Below, one piece after another: positions 2-23,167 of a DNA stretch of 64,000 bases; positions within the stretch are counted from its first letter, which is position 1; each line of letters starts with the position of its first letter. Source of the DNA: Pseudomonadota bacterium (GTDB lineage Bacteria; Pseudomonadota; Alphaproteobacteria; SHVZ01); contig JACQAG010000005.1 in the NCBI GenBank assembly GCA_016195085.1, positions 1 through 64,000 of the forward strand, given 5' to 3'. Under the pieces are notes generated by a model. The model had not been told where the DNA came from and searched no databases. It worked only from the letters and a program-made list of their open reading frames with translations. A program made the position numbers and the translations under genes.

Positions 2-55
2 CCGCTCGATCAGCCAATCCGCCCGTGCCGCAACCCGAACGTCCCCAAAGGCCAT
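2..55 (-). CDS. 5' end of a gene running off the window
   Basis: A minus-strand reading frame begins with ATG at 55-53 and stays open to the window edge (18 codons, starting MAFGDVRVAARADWLIER). A GGAGG sequence lies about nine bases upstream of the ATG, which is why I believe the start. It follows the MoxR/CoxD gene on the same strand, where cox clusters often carry coxE or another accessory gene. The visible residues are too few to identify the product. Confidence 0.4.
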   Translation of the reverse strand, partial: MAFGDVRVAARADWLIER

Positions 56-142
56 GGCAAAGCCTCCGGCAAAACCAGCCCTACTCCTTTGAATCAGATT
101 CGCATTCACCACGGAATCATTTCCGTGAACGCCATAGCCCCC

Positions 143-181
143 AGGGGAGGGTTGGGGAGGGGGTGATCCTCACCCCCTCCC
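143..181. repeat. G-rich hairpin repeat, copy 1
   Basis: Perfect 12-bp inverted arms (155-166 and 170-181, GGGAGGGGGTGA and its complement) are separated by three bases. The G-rich run extends left from about 143. Similar G-rich hairpins occur near 33147-33183 and 58888-58942, so this is a dispersed family. It lies between the coxD stop and the next gene on the minus strand and could act as a terminator, but there is no clear T run. Confidence 0.6.
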
Positions 182-254
182 AAAGTCCACCCCAGGGAGA
201 GGTCGCGAGCGTATGCGAGCGGGTGAGGGGAAGCGGTGGCATGGAGAGTCTCGA

Positions 255-1208
255 TCAGGGCGCGTCGCGCCGGCTGAGCTCGGCCTTGACCTCGCCCAGG
301 ATGCGGCTTGCCTCGCTGCCGGTGATCTTGGCGATGTCGTCCTGATATTTGAGGAGGACGCCAAGGGTGTTGTTGATCGCGTCCGGCTCGAGCACGAGCT
401 GATCCAGCTGCACCAGCGCCTGCGCCCAGTCGATGGTCTCGGCCACGCCCGGCAGCTTGAAGAGATCCATCTCTCTCAGCTTCTGCACGAAGCCGACGAT
501 CTGGCGGCTCAATTCGGCCGGTGCCTGCGGCGCCTTGACCTTGAGGATCGCCAGCTCGCGCTCGGCATTGGGATAGTCGACCCAATAGTAGAAGCAGCGC
601 CGCTTGATCGCGTCGTGGATCTCACGCGTGCGGTTGGACGTGATGATGACGATCGGCGCCTCGGCGGCCTTGATGGTGCCGAGCTCGGGAATGCTGATCT
701 GCCAATCGGAGAGCACCTCGAGGAGATAGGCCTCGAACGGCTCGTCGGTGCGATCGAGCTCGTCGATGAGCAGGACCGGTGCCGGACCCGGATGCGCGAT
801 CGCGTGCAAGAGCGGCCGCTCCACCAGGAACTGGCGGGTGAAGATCTCGGCACCGATCTCGGCCCGGTCGTGCTGGCCGGCGGCTTCCGCGAGCCGGATC
901 TCGATCATCTGCCTGGCGTAGTTCCACTCGTAGACCGCCGAGGCGACGTCCAGGCCCTCATAGCATTGGAGCCGGATGAGATCGCGCCCGAGGCAGAGGG
1001 CGAGCACCTTGGCGATCTCGGTCTTGCCCACACCCGCCTCGCCTTCAAGGAAGAGGGGCCGACGAAGGCCGAGGGCGAGATGGACGGCGGTTGCGAGCGA
1101 TCGGTCGGCGATGTAGTCGCCGCGATCCAAGAGGCGAACGGTATCGTCGACCGACTTCGGCAGGGGCGAGGCGGCTCGGAACGGTGCGGCGGGCAAGGAA
1201 GAGGGCAT
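255..1208 (-). CDS. coxD: MoxR-family AAA+ ATPase, CoxD-like
   Basis: This 317-residue protein is a MoxR-type AAA+ ATPase. The Walker A motif is GEAGVGKT (about residues 56-63) and the Walker B motif is VLLIDELD. Sensor 1 lies in IVIITSNRTRE and an arginine-rich KRRCFYYW segment follows. CoxD proteins of this family help mature the active site of molybdenum hydroxylases. The gene is on the same strand as coxSLM but about 3.2 kb away from coxM, separated by unrelated genes, so its role with that enzyme is inferred from family and proximity. The expected CoxE VWA partner is not visible, although the truncated frame at 55 could be one. MoxR ATPases serve other client systems too. Confidence 0.85.
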   Translation of the reverse strand: MPSSLPAAPFRAASPLPKSVDDTVRLLDRGDYIADRSLATAVHLALGLRRPLFLEGEAGVGKTEIAKVLALCLGRDLIRLQCYEGLDVASAVYEWNYARQMIEIRLAEAAGQHDRAEIGAEIFTRQFLVERPLLHAIAHPGPAPVLLIDELDRTDEPFEAYLLEVLSDWQISIPELGTIKAAEAPIVIITSNRTREIHDAIKRRCFYYWVDYPNAERELAILKVKAPQAPAELSRQIVGFVQKLREMDLFKLPGVAETIDWAQALVQLDQLVLEPDAINNTLGVLLKYQDDIAKITGSEASRILGEVKAELSRRDAP

Positions 1209-13803: not shown

Positions 13804-14907
13804 ATGCGGCGCCCGCTTCTCATCGGCAACGAGATGTACCGGCATTCCGTCTATGGGCCGAAGCATCCCCTGGCGATTCCCCGGGTCTCCACCACCCTCG
13901 ACCTCATCCGGGCCATGGGCTGGTTCGATTCGGAGCGCTATGTCGAGAGCCGGCCCGCCACCCCGGCGGAGCTCGGCCGCTTCCACGCGCCCGACTACAT
14001 CGCCGCCCTCGTGCGGGCCGAGATCGAGGGCGAGGTCGATGCCGAGACGCGAGAGCGCTACAACATCGGGCGGAACGGCAATCCGGTCTTCCCGGAGATC
14101 TTCCGTCGCCCCGCCACCGCCTGCGGGGCGACGCTCAAGGCGGTCGAGCTCCTGGCCGAGGGCGGCATCGTCTATAGCCCGGCCGGCGGCACGCACCATG
14201 GCCGCGCCGATCGGGCGAGCGGGTTCTGCTATTTCAATGATCCGGTTTTGGGCATCCTCAAAATGCTCGACCGCGGCATTGCCCGGATCCTGTATGTGGA
14301 TCTCGATGCGCACCATGGCGACGGCGTGGAAGATGCCTTCGCCGAAGACGACCGCGTGCTGACCATATCCGTGCACGAGGCCGGCCGCTGGCCGAATACC
14401 GGGAGGGCGGAGGAGCGCCGGGGCGGCATGGCCCGCAATCTGCCGGTGCCGCCCGGCTTCAACGACAGCGAGCTCGCTTACATCGTCGAGCGGGCGCTGT
14501 TGCCGCTCGGCCGAAGCTTTCGCCCCGATGCCCTGCTGATCCAGGCCGGCGCCGACGCGCTTGCCGACGATCCGCAAAGCCGCCTCATGCTCTCCAACCG
14601 CGCCCTCTGGGCGGCGGTCGGCGATCTCGCCGGTCTGGCCCCGCGGCTGTTGGTTCTGGGCGGCGGCGGCTACAATCCGTGGTCGGTGGCGCGATGCTGG
14701 ACCGGGATCTGGGCGACGCTCAACGGCCATGCGACGGAAAGCGCGTTGACGCCCGAGGCCGAAGCGGTGCTGGGCTCGCTCAGGTGGAACCATAGCCTCG
14801 GGCGCTCACCGCCCAGCCATTGGTTGACGACGCTTGCCGACGCGCCCAGACCCGGTCCCGTCCGCCTGGAGATCGTCGGCATCGTCGAGGAGGTCATGCG
14901 GACATGA
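13804..14907 (+). CDS. class II-like histone deacetylase-family amidohydrolase (AcuC-like)
   Basis: A 367-residue zinc-dependent deacetylase fold. The active-site His pair is in GGTHHGRADRASGFCYFND, the zinc ligands are in VDLDAHHGDGVEDAF (Asp and His) and QAGADALADDPQ (Asp), and the transition-state Tyr is in GGGGYNPWSVARCW. Bacterial homologues deacetylate acetyl-lysine on metabolic enzymes (AcuC) or acetylpolyamines; the substrate here is unknown. It overlaps the DUF192 gene by 4 bp (ATGA), so the two are co-translated. Length agrees with the family. Confidence 0.9.
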   Translation: MRRPLLIGNEMYRHSVYGPKHPLAIPRVSTTLDLIRAMGWFDSERYVESRPATPAELGRFHAPDYIAALVRAEIEGEVDAETRERYNIGRNGNPVFPEIFRRPATACGATLKAVELLAEGGIVYSPAGGTHHGRADRASGFCYFNDPVLGILKMLDRGIARILYVDLDAHHGDGVEDAFAEDDRVLTISVHEAGRWPNTGRAEERRGGMARNLPVPPGFNDSELAYIVERALLPLGRSFRPDALLIQAGADALADDPQSRLMLSNRALWAAVGDLAGLAPRLLVLGGGGYNPWSVARCWTGIWATLNGHATESALTPEAEAVLGSLRWNHSLGRSPPSHWLTTLADAPRPGPVRLEIVGIVEEVMRT

Positions 14908-15353
14908 TGCGGTGGGTGGCGCTAATCGTGATGTTCGTGGCGCTGCCAACGGCGGCGCAGCGTCCTCTCAACTATGAGAAGGACACGGCGGTGATCGAAA
15001 CCGCCACGGGGCAGCGCCACACCGTCAACGTCGAGCTTGCGGTCACGCCGGACCAGATGGCTCAAGGGCTGATGTACCGCCGGCAGCTGGCGCCCGATGC
15101 CGGCATGCTCTTCATCTACCCTGCGCCCGAGCCGGCGGCCTTTTGGATGAAGAACACGCTGATCCCCCTCGACATGCTGTTCATCGCCGCCGACGGGCGC
15201 ATCCTCAACATCGCCGAGCGCACGATCCCCCTATCGGAGACCCCGGTTCCCGCCGCCGGCCCGGTCAAGGCGGTGCTCGAGCTCAACGGCGGCACCACCG
15301 CCCGGCTCGGAATCAAGTCAGGCGACCGGGTCCGCCATAAGAGCTTGCCCTAG
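14904..15353 (+). CDS. DUF192 exported protein
   Basis: 149 residues with an N-terminal signal peptide (MMRWVALIVMFVALPTAAQ) and a DUF192 domain: VNVELAVTPDQMAQGLMYRRQL, MLFIYPAPEPAAFWMKNTLIPLDMLFI, and the C-terminal AVLELNGGTTARLGIKSGDRV. Function is not known for the family. It probably acts in the periplasm. The start at ATG 14904 overlaps the stop of the deacetylase gene. It is convergent with the patatin gene. Confidence 0.9.
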   Translation: MMRWVALIVMFVALPTAAQRPLNYEKDTAVIETATGQRHTVNVELAVTPDQMAQGLMYRRQLAPDAGMLFIYPAPEPAAFWMKNTLIPLDMLFIAADGRILNIAERTIPLSETPVPAAGPVKAVLELNGGTTARLGIKSGDRVRHKSLP

Positions 15354-15390: not shown

Positions 15391-18231
15391 CTAGGTGCAC
15401 AAGTCGGAGGGTAAAAGCGTGCCACGCGTCTTTGCCTTCCGGGTCGCCGTATCCTCGATGATCGTGCTGGCGATGAAATATCCCAGCGAGCGATAGGATT
15501 CGAGCTGCGGCTCGTCGAACCATTGATCGGCCGTGGATTGGTTCGGGAAGTCCACATGCGCGCGCTCGTACGCAATGACGTCGGCCGCACCTTCGGTGCC
15601 CTGCACGGTCGGCTTGATGTAGAGAATGTGGCCGAGCGGGGTGTCGGGGTCGCTGAGGTACTTGATGTTGCCCCGAATGCAATATGGTACTTGCGCCGGC
15701 GGGGTCTTATCGGTTGCTGCGAGCAAATCGGACCCTTCGAAGGTGATGCGCACCCCGAGATCGATCCAGATCTTGCGCACGGCATTGCCGAGGTCTTCGA
15801 AATGCCGCGCGCCATCCTGGCCCGCGTCGCAGACGACGATCCACCGGCAGCGGCGGCGGACCAGCTCGTAGAGCCCGAGATTCTCGAAATGCCCGCCGTC
15901 GGAGAGGTAGACGTAAGAGCTGTCTTCGTTGGTCATGCCGAAGAGCTCGGCAAGGAGCGGATATAGCGTCATCCGGGGCGCTTCTTGTCGATATGGCTCT
16001 TTCTCTCTTCTCTTCTCCCTCGCCATCGTCTCCCGTGCAGTCGCTGGCTTCTCCTCGCCTTGCTCAGAGAATGGCGCTCCGCCTGCTTTACCCGGATTGC
16101 CGAGCCACCAGCCCAGGCGCACGTTCAACATGGTCAACAGAAATGCAATGGAGGGCGAGGAGTGATACCCCATGTTCGGGCTGACCGCGGCTCCCGAGAT
16201 CGCCATCGCCGTGCCGAGCGATATTCCGGCCTTCGGGTGGCCGTAGGTCTCGGTCGGGCGGTAGCCGAGATTGGCCGTGCCGCAATGGAGAGGCGTCACG
16301 GTGAAGGATTCTGCCTTGCGATGCTGCCAAGCGAGCTTAGGACTGGCGGCGAGATTGAGGGCGATGTTCACGATGTGGAAGGGCCGCCAATCCGTACCAA
16401 CGCGCTTGTCTGGGGAGTCTGCGTTCGGCCAAAGATCTTTGACCTGCAGGTTGTCCTTGTTGTCGAATCCAGTGAAGCGGTCCGCTTGGCGCGCAATGCC
16501 ATGCGGCCCACCGAGAAAGGCGCGGATGAGCCGGTTGCGGTAGAGGGCGTGTAGGGAGAAGCGGTTGACGTTCACGAACATGGACGCGCCGATCATTACT
16601 GCGATTGCCGACACAAAAGTACCTAGTGTCCAGCGCCAATTCGATTGATAGAGGACGTTGCTGCCATCGTCGTTGAAGAAGGCACTGTCCTGAAAGCGCG
16701 TGTCCAAGGCGATGAGGTCGAATCCCATCGAAAGCAGAATCAACACGATCGCCGCAAAGAGCGGCCCGGCCACCGCCAAGCCGACGTTCATGGCAGTGCC
16801 TGTCCAGCTCGAGGTCTGGCCTCGGCCGGACGTCAGGCTGCTCTTTCCCAGCAGCGCTGTTACGAACCCGGAGGCGGCACCGAGGCTCGGAAGCAATCCC
16901 GGCACCTGACCGCCGAGGTACTCGACGGCGTCGTAGAGCCAAGAGGCGCATAGAACGAGACTCGAGACCACGAGCCAGACGAGAGCGGCGATGATGTACC
17001 AGGCGCCGGCACGGCCTAGCCATTCGCGCTCGAAATCGCCATCGTGGCTGTAGCTCCGCAACATGACATAGGCCATGTGGCCCATGAGGAGGGACACGAA
17101 GAACCAGGGCATGCCGAGGATCACGAGTATGATTTGTGCCACCGGCTTGTCGGCAGCGGTGGGCGCGAGCCCCGCGCAAAGATGCACGCCCAGCCAAATC
17201 AATGTGCCCGACACGATCGCGCTGGCGCCCCAGGCGACGTAGTCCTTCGTCCGTTCCCGGTCCTTTTCTCGCTTCGCGCTGGCAATCGTTGCGGCGTAGA
17301 CGGCCAATGCGACGGCGATCATGAGCGGCAGCTGCCAGTAGCTGACATAGCGGGGATCTGTGACCATTCCCAGCCCTGCAGCAGGGGAGACCAGAGCGTC
17401 TGCAGGCGTCATTCTGTTGTTGGCCAGCCATGCGAAAATTGCCCCCGCTCCGATCGCTGGAACGACGCTCCACTTTAGGAATTGCATCTGCTCGGCCGAA
17501 GAAGACACCTTCGGGTGTTCGCCGGCGTAAAGCTTCACCAGCTTGTAGCGGAAGCTCATCCCGGTCAGGACGAGACCAAGCATGGCAATGGCTGCGCCGT
17601 ACCAGGGCCACCAAAATTTGAATTCCGCCGTGTGCGCGATGGCGGCGACGATCTTGACCGCGATGATGGGGAGGAGCAGGGCGGGGATGAGGATGAGCCA
17701 ATTGAGCAGCAGATTGCGGGTGACGATGGTGACCGCCGTCCAAAGGTCGGTCGAGAGGATCCCCATCTTGGGTGTGAGATAGGAGCTGTAGGCACGCAGA
17801 TGACGGATCGGGAGCGGCTCCTTGTCCGGCTGGCCACGTTTCGGATTGAGCCCTCGTAGCACCTCGCCGGAATCCCTGGCCCAGTTCAGCCAAGCCGACA
17901 GCCAGGCGCCGATATAGCCACCGCCGGAGACCGTCGAGAGATAGTGGAAGCGACGGAGCAGATCGCCCTCGGCGAGCGCCTGGATGACGCCAAGCGCGAA
18001 GGAAGCGCTGCGGATCCCGCCACCGGACAGCGCCAGACCCACCGGCTCCAGCGCATGCGCCGCCGTATAGGCCGCTCGTCGGCGGGCGCGTTCCAGCTCG
18101 TCCGGATCGGGTTGGGCTGGTAGCTCCCTAAACGTTTGGTCGAGTTGCCGGACCGGAGCGCTGTTAGGCCAGATTGCGCCGAATTCCGCCCGCAGCACAT
18201 CGGACAACGCATAAGGTTCGCCCCCGGCCAT
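15391..18231 (-). CDS. very large membrane-embedded patatin-like phospholipase
   Basis: 946 residues. A patatin N-terminal half has the oxyanion loop SGGGIRSASF (about 69-78) and the nucleophile elbow STVSGGG (Ser102, with Thr in place of the usual first Gly). The partner Asp lies in YLSDGGHFENLGLYELV (about residue 778). Between Ser and Asp are some 675 residues with about nine or ten hydrophobic helices (for example NWLILIPALLLPIIAVKIVAAI and AAIVLILLSMGFDLIA) and soluble loops. So the catalytic dyad is complete but split by a membrane module, unlike ordinary 300-residue patatins. It probably acts as a lipid acyl hydrolase in the inner membrane. It is a stand-alone gene; the gene before it encodes an O-methyltransferase further upstream. 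Confidence 0.85.
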   Translation of the reverse strand: MAGGEPYALSDVLRAEFGAIWPNSAPVRQLDQTFRELPAQPDPDELERARRRAAYTAAHALEPVGLALSGGGIRSASFALGVIQALAEGDLLRRFHYLSTVSGGGYIGAWLSAWLNWARDSGEVLRGLNPKRGQPDKEPLPIRHLRAYSSYLTPKMGILSTDLWTAVTIVTRNLLLNWLILIPALLLPIIAVKIVAAIAHTAEFKFWWPWYGAAIAMLGLVLTGMSFRYKLVKLYAGEHPKVSSSAEQMQFLKWSVVPAIGAGAIFAWLANNRMTPADALVSPAAGLGMVTDPRYVSYWQLPLMIAVALAVYAATIASAKREKDRERTKDYVAWGASAIVSGTLIWLGVHLCAGLAPTAADKPVAQIILVILGMPWFFVSLLMGHMAYVMLRSYSHDGDFEREWLGRAGAWYIIAALVWLVVSSLVLCASWLYDAVEYLGGQVPGLLPSLGAASGFVTALLGKSSLTSGRGQTSSWTGTAMNVGLAVAGPLFAAIVLILLSMGFDLIALDTRFQDSAFFNDDGSNVLYQSNWRWTLGTFVSAIAVMIGASMFVNVNRFSLHALYRNRLIRAFLGGPHGIARQADRFTGFDNKDNLQVKDLWPNADSPDKRVGTDWRPFHIVNIALNLAASPKLAWQHRKAESFTVTPLHCGTANLGYRPTETYGHPKAGISLGTAMAISGAAVSPNMGYHSSPSIAFLLTMLNVRLGWWLGNPGKAGGAPFSEQGEEKPATARETMAREKRREKEPYRQEAPRMTLYPLLAELFGMTNEDSSYVYLSDGGHFENLGLYELVRRRCRWIVVCDAGQDGARHFEDLGNAVRKIWIDLGVRITFEGSDLLAATDKTPPAQVPYCIRGNIKYLSDPDTPLGHILYIKPTVQGTEGAADVIAYERAHVDFPNQSTADQWFDEPQLESYRSLGYFIASTIIEDTATRKAKTRGTLLPSDLCT

Positions 18232-20110: not shown

Positions 20111-20239
20111 CGCCCGTGATTGCACTTATGTTGCTGGCCGCATTCCTCGGGGCTGGGGTTTCAAGACGGAGGGGGTGAGACGCCATGGACAGGCGTTTGG
20201 GATTGGGCGTCTACGCGGACGTCCTGCCGTGATCGCTCC

Positions 20240-23167
20240 ATGACGGGCGGCTGCCGGCGCTTGGGCGCGGTCCTTCTCGCCATGGCGCTCGCATGTGTGG
20301 CTCCGGCCCAAGCGCAAATCACGCTCGACGGCTCGCTCGGCCGGTCTGGTGGGCTCAGCGGGCCCGATTATCTCATTGGCGCCGATCTCGGCCGCCAGGT
20401 CGGCGGCAATCTCTTTCACAGCTTCGGCCGGTTCAATCTACTGACCGGCGAGAGCGCCACCTTCTCCGGGCCGGGCAGTGTCAGCAACATCATCGGACGG
20501 GTGACCGGCGGCAGCGCGTCCTCGATCGATGGCACTATCCGCTCGACGATCCCTGGCGCCAATCTGTTTCTGGTGAACCCGGCCGGCATGATGTTCGGGC
20601 CGAATGCGAGCCTGGACGTGCAGGGATCGTTCCATGCAACGACCGCCGATTATCTCCGCTTGGCCGATGGCGCGCGCTTTCAGGCAACCAACCCCACAGC
20701 CAGCAGTTTCACCGCGGCACCGCCGGTGGCCTTCGGCTTTCTCGGCCCCAACCCGGCCGCGCTCACCGTCCAGGGCAGTTTTCTCGCGGTGCCGTCGGGC
20801 GCGAGTCTCAGCCTGGTCGGCGGGCCCGTCACCATTGCCAACGGCCTTATCCAGGCGCCGGGAGGCACGGTCAACATTGCGAGCGCCCGCAACCCAGGCG
20901 AGAGCGCCGTCGATCAGGCCCAAGTCGTCAATCCGGTCCTGCCCGATGGCGTCGTTTCGATCACGACCGGCTCCACGATCGATGTCGGGGATGTGACCGG
21001 CATACTCCCTGCCGGCACCATCCGTATCCGCGGCGGCGCCATCACGATGGATGCCAGCACCGCGCAAGCAAAGAACACCGGCTCGAGCCCCGCGGGCGGT
21101 ATCGTCATCGAGTCCGACGGGTCGGTCATGCTGAGCGGAGGAACGCAGATCCTCTCGAGCTCCACCGGCGGCAATGGTGGGGCGATCACCATCCGCGCCG
21201 GCAGCCTCATTCTCGAGAGCGCCGTGATCACCGCCGATACCCAGGCGAATGGGACCGGCGGGGCGATTTCAGTGGATGCCGGCACGGTGATGCTGCGCGA
21301 CGGCGGCCAGATCCGCGCCAATACCAGCGGGACCGGAAATGGCGGGACCGTCCTCGTCCGGGCAAAGCAGCTCACCATCGATGGTCAAGACGCGCTCATC
21401 CTGACCAATGCGTTTGACCAAGGTAACGCGGGCGACGTCACGATCGAAGCCAGCACTGTGACCGTGCGCGGGGGAGGCGCCATCGGCAGCGTGACGCTCG
21501 ACCTTGGAGCCAACTTCCAAGGAAATGCGGGGAATGTCACGCTCAAGGCCGATCAGCTGACGATCCTGGACGGTGGAAGCATCGTAAGCAATACGACGGG
21601 CGGCAGCGGCAATGCCGGCGCCGTGAATGTCCATGCAAGCCAAGTGACGATCGATGGCACGAACGCCAACGGAGGATTCACCGGGATCAGCTCCAATTCC
21701 CAGCCGGGCGGCGGAAGCGGCAACGCCGGCGCAATCACCCTCGAAGCCGATGCCGTGAGCATTCGCGCAAGCGGAGAGATCACCAGCTCGACATTCACAT
21801 TTGGAAATTCCGGCTCGGTGATGGTCCGGGCGGGGCAACTGACGATCGACGGCGCCAATCAAACCCCGCATCTCTTCACCGGGATAGCCACCGATGCGCG
21901 CAGCTCGTCCAGCGGCAACGCCGGACGAATTACCGTCGATGCCGGTAAGTTGACGCTGCTGAACAATGGCATCATCACCAGCGGAACCTTCAGCTCGGGC
22001 AATGCCGGTTCCGTGGCGGTTCGAGCCGACCGGTTGACGATCGATGGCGCGCACGGGATTGTGAATTTGACGACCGGCATCATCTCCGAGGCGGCCGCCT
22101 CGGCCAGCGGCAATGCCGGCCAGGTCACCATCGATGCCGGCGAGTTGAATCTGCTCGGCAACGGTGCGATCTCCGGCGGTACGTTCGGCTCGGGCAACGG
22201 CGGCGCGGTGACGGTCCGCGCAAGGCAGCTGACGATTGATGGCACCAACGGAGACCCGAGGTTCTTGACTGGAATAGCCTCGCAGACGGAACCCGCTTCG
22301 AGTGGCAATGCCGGCCAAGTCACCGTCGAGGCGAACGCTGTGCGGCTGATCGGCGGCGGCCGGATCAGCAGCAGCGCACTCGGACGCGGCCGAGGCGGCG
22401 ACGTGGTGATCCGTGTACAGGGCGAGATGGATGCCAGCGGCTCCGATGCGGGCGGGCGCGGCTCGGGAGTCTCCGTTCGCTCGACCGGTCAAGGCGATGC
22501 CGGAACCATCTCGGTCCAGGCCGATAAGGTGGTGCTGCAGAATGGCGGCGGGATTTTCGCCACCGCCGCCCAGGCCGGCGGCGGCAACGTCGATTTGCGT
22601 CTCGGTCATCTGCTTTTCATCGACCACGGAACCATATCGACGAGCGTCAGCGGCATCTCCGGCAATGGCGGCAACGTTACCATCGATCCGCAGGCGATCG
22701 TGCTCCGCGCCAGCACGATTCGGGCGAACGCCGTCGGCGGCAATGGCGGCAATCTCAGGCTTGCTTCGGACGTGTTTCTGGCCGATCCGTCAAGCCTGCT
22801 TTCGGCGTCGTCGACGCTCGGCATCTCGGGCACGATCGTCGTCTCGGCGCCGCATGTGGACGTGACGAGCGCGATCGCGATCAAGGCACCGGATTTTTTC
22901 GATGCCGCGTCACTCATCAGCGAAGGCTGCAGCGGCCGGTCCGGTAGCCCGCGCTCGAGCCTCATTGTCTCCGGCCGCGGCGGCCTTCCCGCCGACGCCG
23001 AGACGAGCCTCAGCGCCTTCTATCGCGGCCATGAGGCGACCTCGGCAGCGGGTCAGGCCACCGGACGAAACGGCATGATCGCCGAGGTTTCGACATCGCC
23101 TCCGAACGGGTCGGCGGTTAGAAGCTTGGTGGCGTGTGGCTCGGCTGCCGTGAATACGCTGCGGTGA
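20240..23167 (+). CDS. two-partner secretion (TpsA/filamentous hemagglutinin-like) adhesin
   Basis: 975 residues, starting at ATG 20240 with a signal peptide (ending APAQA-QITLD). The TPS secretion domain follows: ITLDGSLGRSGGLSGPDYLIGADLG, LFHSFGRFNLLTGESATFSGP, IRSTIPGANLFLVNPAGMMFGPNASLDVQGSF. The rest is Gly/Asn-rich beta-helix repeats (GNAGQVTIDAGELNLLGNG and variants), then a C-terminal CSGRSGSPRSSLIVSGRGGLPADAET segment resembling cyanobacterial TPS proteins. It is probably exported through the outer membrane to act as an adhesin. No TpsB transporter gene is nearby. It lies inside the tRNA-Arg island, which suggests transfer. A longer frame upstream to 20120 lacks a signal peptide. Confidence 0.88.
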   Translation: MTGGCRRLGAVLLAMALACVAPAQAQITLDGSLGRSGGLSGPDYLIGADLGRQVGGNLFHSFGRFNLLTGESATFSGPGSVSNIIGRVTGGSASSIDGTIRSTIPGANLFLVNPAGMMFGPNASLDVQGSFHATTADYLRLADGARFQATNPTASSFTAAPPVAFGFLGPNPAALTVQGSFLAVPSGASLSLVGGPVTIANGLIQAPGGTVNIASARNPGESAVDQAQVVNPVLPDGVVSITTGSTIDVGDVTGILPAGTIRIRGGAITMDASTAQAKNTGSSPAGGIVIESDGSVMLSGGTQILSSSTGGNGGAITIRAGSLILESAVITADTQANGTGGAISVDAGTVMLRDGGQIRANTSGTGNGGTVLVRAKQLTIDGQDALILTNAFDQGNAGDVTIEASTVTVRGGGAIGSVTLDLGANFQGNAGNVTLKADQLTILDGGSIVSNTTGGSGNAGAVNVHASQVTIDGTNANGGFTGISSNSQPGGGSGNAGAITLEADAVSIRASGEITSSTFTFGNSGSVMVRAGQLTIDGANQTPHLFTGIATDARSSSSGNAGRITVDAGKLTLLNNGIITSGTFSSGNAGSVAVRADRLTIDGAHGIVNLTTGIISEAAASASGNAGQVTIDAGELNLLGNGAISGGTFGSGNGGAVTVRARQLTIDGTNGDPRFLTGIASQTEPASSGNAGQVTVEANAVRLIGGGRISSSALGRGRGGDVVIRVQGEMDASGSDAGGRGSGVSVRSTGQGDAGTISVQADKVVLQNGGGIFATAAQAGGGNVDLRLGHLLFIDHGTISTSVSGISGNGGNVTIDPQAIVLRASTIRANAVGGNGGNLRLASDVFLADPSSLLSASSTLGISGTIVVSAPHVDVTSAIAIKAPDFFDAASLISEGCSGRSGSPRSSLIVSGRGGLPADAETSLSAFYRGHEATSAAGQATGRNGMIAEVSTSPPNGSAVRSLVACGSAAVNTLR
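21716..22400 (+). repeat. tandem beta-helix repeats in the adhesin gene
   Basis: GGCAACGCCGG-type cores recur near 21720, 21915, 22110 and 22306, a spacing of about 195 bp (65 residues). Each unit holds two half-motifs, SGNAGxxTxxAxxLxLLxNGxI and SGNAGSVxVRAxxLTIDGxxG. The region is the shaft of the adhesin and prone to recombination. Confidence 0.8.

Follow-up and report, generated by a model that had tools for sequence, protein, structure and literature searches.

A Patatin/cPLA2-Like Protein with a Predicted Membrane Module between Its Catalytic Serine and Aspartate

The question raised by the locus described here is how a patatin-type serine-aspartate dyad can be formed when a series of hydrophobic helices separates its two residues. 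The gene lies in a stretch of 64,000 nucleotides (the window) of contig JACQAG010000005.1, from an alphaproteobacterial assembly. Its product is quite likely a polytopic inner-membrane lipid acyl hydrolase in which, as sequence comparison and a structural model suggest, a patatin/cPLA2 Ser-Asp domain is interrupted by a ten-helix module and its two halves are paired in the cytosol.

The gene, its motifs, and its relatives

The initial annotation placed the oxyanion loop SGGGIRS at residues 69-75, Ser102 near the N terminus, and the Asp of a DGG motif at residue 778, and all these positions were confirmed in the 946-residue open reading frame (Table 1). Ser102 and Asp778, the latter within LSDGGHFENLGLYE (also given as SDGGHFENLGLYE), are 676 residues apart. 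The Pfam match to PF01734 scores 33.3 bits against a cut-off of 27.7 and covers only profile positions 1-47 of 191, and an NCBIfam search of the protein gave no match. By inspection, the N terminus has no apparent signal peptide. The patatin motif set is present as SGGGIR, TVSGG, and DGG, with T in place of G at position −2 of the elbow. This elbow had been regarded as unusual, which does not hold, as compact soluble relatives carry SVSGG, TVSGG, or CVSGG. On our reading of the compact homologues, the ISGAAVSPNMGYHSSP block is probably the equivalent of the patatin [S/A]SSA.P block that precedes the catalytic Asp.

Table 1: Features of the gene and of the encoded protein in the window.
Feature	Coordinates	Strand	Basis
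Gene for the 946-aa membrane-inserted patatin/cPLA2-like protein (P0001)	15391..18231	-	Intact ORF; PF01734 at residues 66-114
N-terminal catalytic half, residues 1-165, with oxyanion loop and nucleophile elbow	17737..18231	-	hhalign to compact patatin profile
Oxyanion loop SGGGIRS, residues 69-75	18007..18027	-	S69, G70-72, R74 invariant in 29/29
Nucleophile elbow STVSGGG, residues 99-105, with Ser102	17917..17937	-	Ser102 in 29/29
Membrane module, residues ~166-553, ~ten predicted TM helices	16573..17736	-	Averaged hydropathy, loop charges, per-protein helix counts
C-terminal catalytic half, residues 554-946	15394..16572	-	hhalign to the same compact patatin profile; identity to homologues
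ISGAAVSPNMGYHSSP block, residues 678-693	16153..16200	-	S679, G680, A681 in 29/29
DGGHFENLGLYE region, residues 777-789, with catalytic Asp778	15865..15903	-	D778, G779, G780 in 29/29

A search for homologues with the same split was successful, and the Ser/Asp pair is kept in all 29 full-length proteins aligned. Relatives were found in Alphaproteobacteria, Candidatus Accumulibacter, Blastocatellia, Terriglobia, and other Acidobacteria. They occur in 36 of the 299 sampled genomes of the window's phylum and in 22 of the 119 sampled from the phylum of a Blastocatellia locus (L001), counts that include compact relatives matching at the N block only; the full architecture, with matches to both the N and the C block, is found in about 26 and about 11 of these genomes, respectively. 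Plasmid-borne relatives are present in Rhizobium, Sinorhizobium, Methylobacterium, Azospirillum, Paracoccus, Cupriavidus, Streptomyces, and Hymenobacter; one homologue, WP_012329697.1, belongs to plasmid pMRAD01 of Methylobacterium radiotolerans JCM 2831. In the plasmid records examined, the annotation of the homologues is limited to “patatin-like phospholipase,” “patatin/phospholipase-related protein,” or “hypothetical protein.”

Identity in the 29 aligned proteins extends to S69, G70-72, R74, S99, T100, S102, G103, and G104 in the N-terminal half and to S679, G680, A681, D778, G779, G780, and D802 in the C-terminal half. Because the GGGxR loop and the Ser/Asp pair never vary among them, the motif set of the window protein is not due to chance. 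The mean identity to the query is 48% in the N and 42% in the C catalytic core versus 18% in the membrane module. The Ser-Asp spacing of the full-length homologues ranges from 459 to 728 residues and defines two size classes, a long form (598-728) and a short form (mostly 459-555, with one member at 639).

Phage genomes gave no match in the homologue search, and the scans of viral contigs returned one truncated relative only, a short form on a 62 kb IMG/VR contig classed as viral (3300038300_000076; L047, 5013-7004) whose match stops soon past the DGG region. One long-form member lies within an open frame of 1555 residues (L050, 927-5591, reverse strand), with about 270 residues before and about 400 after the family domain; this frame has no Pfam match. 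A natural two-polypeptide version in Hymenobacter was considered and rejected, as a frameshift separates the two frames. In two homologues (L090, 4107-7738; L003, 5920-8735), the reading frame changes within or beyond the membrane module, and these look like frameshifts rather than natural two-chain versions.

Colinearity with a compact patatin domain

The relation between the two catalytic pieces was examined with a compact patatin profile built from eight relatives in which Ser and Asp are only 174-218 residues apart. In hhalign, residues 40-165 of the family (the N block) matched columns 12-82 of this profile with a probability of 99.1 (E 6.8e-19), and residues 545-946 (the C block) matched columns 113-291 with a probability of 97.5 (E 7.5e-12). 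The block between them (residues 165-548) gives no alignment to this profile (hhalign probability 0.1). Since the N and C blocks align in order to the profile of about 400 residues and the middle block does not, the pieces carrying Ser and Asp are consecutive parts of one patatin-type domain. Following the elbow helix, a gap of about 30 profile columns takes up the insert of about 390 residues. The sequences themselves thus establish the motifs and their invariance, the insert, and the colinear match to a compact domain, and by this evidence the membrane module is inserted in, or was acquired by, a single patatin/cPLA2 domain.

About 675 residues with nine or ten helices had been described between Ser and Asp. 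Nine to ten hydrophobic helices are indeed present at residues 174-553, but the insert proper is restricted to the ~390 residues of the module, and the ~225 residues between it and Asp778 are soluble conserved core.

The compact bacterial patatin-like proteins of about 400 residues (such as L078, L080, L075, and L077) carry the oxyanion loop, the [ST]VSGG elbow, [SA]SSA.P, and DGG..N.G in the same order, and on sequence criteria they are the relatives of both halves. They differ from the window family in having the shorter spacing given above and no internal polytopic module. One compact relative (L074, 1640-4420) is fused to a TPR-S sensor domain and has three C-terminal hydrophobic helices.

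Predicted fold and topology

The fold and the topology of the window protein were obtained by prediction. An AlphaFold2 model built from nine sequences is of moderate confidence (mean pLDDT 63.7, pTM 0.57), and residues 736-782, Asp778 included, have a pLDDT below 50; a single-sequence model was discarded (pLDDT 39.8). Around Ser102, the model shows a strand at 97-100 followed by a helix at 103-118. Its best VIA-align matches are cPLA2-delta (Z 24.1, rmsd 4.0 Å) and cPLA2-alpha (Z 23.7, rmsd 3.3 Å), with 345 residues superposed over the model ranges 3..944 and 2..939, respectively. Lower scores were obtained for CapV (15.9), PlpD (15.5), VipD (15.0), patatin (14.5), and ExoU (11.2), and unrelated chains score from 6.8. 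Foldseek also places cPLA2 first (E 2.3e-4), but with TM-scores of 0.2-0.3 and a large rmsd; such low TM-scores are expected if only the core matches, and the top structural matches are dominated by the catalytic core. As the N half has 165 residues and 345 are aligned, much of the C half must lie in the same superposition, so that both halves contribute to the core of the predicted model. The catalytic halves are therefore predicted, at the moderate confidence of the model, to fold into one cPLA2-like core. When solved structures were searched by sequence, the N block gave the only matches, weak ones to VipD and ExoU.

Hydropathy averaged over 11 long-form proteins shows ten segments between residues 174 and 553, with predicted transmembrane centres near 183, 219, 261, 299-310, 340, 370-380, 420, 456, 495, and 544; the average over 17 short-form proteins shows six clear segments. 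Helices in single proteins were counted with a home-made biological-hydrophobicity sum at four thresholds, and the parity of the count shifts with the threshold. The most permissive threshold (3.5) gives 10 or 12 helices in 9 of the 11 long forms, 6 in 17 of the 18 others, and an even number in 26 of the 29 proteins, while stricter thresholds give 8-9 helices in the window protein. The mean number of Lys plus Arg is 4.3, 3.6, 2.9, and 2.5 in the predicted cytosolic loops and 1.5, 1.4, 0.9, 1.3, and 2.2 in the outside loops. These charges obey the positive-inside rule provided that the N terminus lies in the cytosol, which would bring both catalytic halves to the cytosolic side; judging from the loop sequences, this is the most likely location of both. 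The suggestion of the initial annotation that the core is assembled from both sides of the membrane module is supported by the colinear hhalign alignments, by the moderate-confidence model that joins the halves, and by the common cytosolic side that we infer for them.

Mechanism, alternatives, and comparison with known enzymes

Hydrolase activity, substrate, and membrane leaflet of the window protein are inferred, and the protein is probably a cytosol-facing phospholipase or lysophospholipase of the inner membrane. The predicted module interrupts the Ser-Asp domain about 60 residues past the nucleophile. With an even number of helices and a cytosolic N terminus, the chain would enter the membrane and return, so that the halves meet in the cytosol and the paired cPLA2-like core would hold its active site on the inner leaflet. 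In the proposed reaction, Asp778 would activate Ser102 for attack on the acyl ester of a phospholipid or lysophospholipid, and GGGIR (70-74) would hold the oxyanion. The main role of the module would be to keep the active site on the membrane permanently, in place of the reversible binding by which soluble patatins and cPLA2 are recruited.

The nearest genes in the window encode an O-methyltransferase, a DUF192 protein, an HDAC-family protein, and NDUS4. The window protein has no conserved neighbour genes, and the recurrent candidates among the homologues are mostly antisense reading frames. One clade of homologues shows synteny with RNase HII. This synteny and the window neighbours suggest, for those members, a general cellular role rather than that of a mobile weapon. 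The HDAC-family gene and then the DUF192 gene (13804-15353, forward strand) are convergent with the lipase gene. At 20120-23167 (forward strand), a 1015-residue frame with repeats and a filamentous-haemagglutinin-like N terminus resembles, from reading of the frame, a two-partner-secretion exoprotein.

Among the short forms, one on a Mesorhizobium plasmid (NZ_AP023248.1; L088, 1-8775) lies among four annotated TIR-domain genes, with uracil-DNA glycosylase and pyrophosphohydrolase genes near, a possible conflict or defence cluster. Another, on a Rhizobium leguminosarum plasmid (CP050515.1; L092, 1457-12076), stands between a lysozyme gene and that of a 1201-residue protein, with DUF2235 and alpha/beta-hydrolase genes near. 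The Mesorhizobium and Rhizobium settings are compatible with specialized uses and leave room for them. The Hymenobacter homologue adjoins an N-acetylmuramidase gene.

The module may be a gate or sensor and not an anchor alone, its helices being moved by a ligand, the lipid state, or membrane stress so as to open or close the active site of a lipase regulated in signalling, damage, or defence responses; this is a tentative alternative. It is favoured by the position of the module, which is spliced into the catalytic domain instead of being attached at one end, and by the few module residues kept despite its fast divergence (R172 and R402 in both long and short forms, and REW..R at 402-407 in the long form, within predicted cytosolic loop 6-7). 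The Mesorhizobium short form among TIR-domain genes and the TPR-S domain of a compact relative point the same way. Gating is plausible because both ends of the module are joined to the core and the REW..R residues are conserved in a predicted cytosolic loop; however, such residues could be mere structural contacts. Moreover, a Pfam search of the module gave no match above cut-off and recognized no ligand-binding domain, the PADLOC search of the window protein found no defence family at E up to 1, and the neighbourhoods of other members, including the window and the RNase HII clade, are housekeeping-like. A broader form of this idea is slightly more doubtful, namely, a multiphylum family of membrane-coupled lipases in which the polytopic domain inserted in the core responds to a ligand or to the state of the membrane, or supplies lipid to the active site, and gates the Ser-Asp dyad mechanically; if it were true, the family would amount to a bacterial cPLA2 that carries its own membrane regulator.

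Two other readings concern the architecture itself. As the module makes up about 40% of the protein, the latter might be a transporter or a scramblase-like membrane protein whose flanking patatin-like pieces are noncatalytic structural relics. This is very improbable, since Ser, Asp, and the oxyanion residues are invariant in all 29 proteins and conservation is lowest in the module, where 6 to 12 helices are predicted; a transporter would be expected to show the opposite. It is hardly credible, too, that the halves lie on opposite membrane faces, or are unrelated, with the dyad a coincidence of an odd helix number or of two fused genes. Strict hydropathy thresholds do give 5 or 9 helices in some members, but both halves are colinear with one compact patatin, superpose together on cPLA2 in the model, and are joined by 10 or 6 helices in the averaged profiles.

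The preferred reading, an interrupted cytosolic Ser-Asp domain, may be compared with known systems. The dyad split had been set against the compact fold of ordinary patatins, but a wide gap is already known from cPLA2, where Ser228 and Asp549 are 321 residues apart and the oxyanion loop GGGFR occupies residues 196-200 (PMC3521694). The catalytic domain of group IV cPLA2 (PDB 1CJY, 5IZR) is the best structural match of the moderate-confidence model (Z ~24), and it shares with the window protein the SGGGxR oxyanion loop (GGGIR here) and a dyad far apart in sequence. The elbow TVSGG and the Asp motif SDGGHFENL distinguish the window protein, and the PLA2_B profile (PF01735) gives 8.4 bits, in the N half only, which does not reach the cut-off of 23. 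The insert of cPLA2 is a soluble cap or lid, and cPLA2-alpha is recruited by a C2 domain; in the window protein, the insert is a multipass membrane module, with 9-10 predicted helices between Ser and Asp.

Patatin, PlpD, and CapV (PF01734) have in common with the window protein the Ser-Asp dyad and the core fold (Z 14-16), but their core is compact and the structural match weaker than that of cPLA2. An outer-membrane barrel is part of PlpD, and CapV responds to a cyclic nucleotide; neither feature is seen in the window protein. Neuropathy target esterase and PNPLA6-7 are membrane-bound patatin-type lysophospholipases facing the cytosol, whose membrane anchor is N-terminal to the patatin domain, whereas the membrane part of the window protein is inside it. 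A literature search, confined to open-licence papers and therefore weak as evidence of absence, found no account of a polytopic module inside a patatin or cPLA2 domain.

The novel point is best read as the nature of the insert between the dyad residues, a multipass membrane domain, which gives a known enzyme class a new architecture. A soluble lipase has to reach the membrane; in the window family, a membrane domain is built into the catalytic fold. The family provides a bacterial relative of cPLA2 in which membrane helices separate the halves of the dyad, and with it a natural system in which the control of an interfacial lipase by membrane embedding can be studied.
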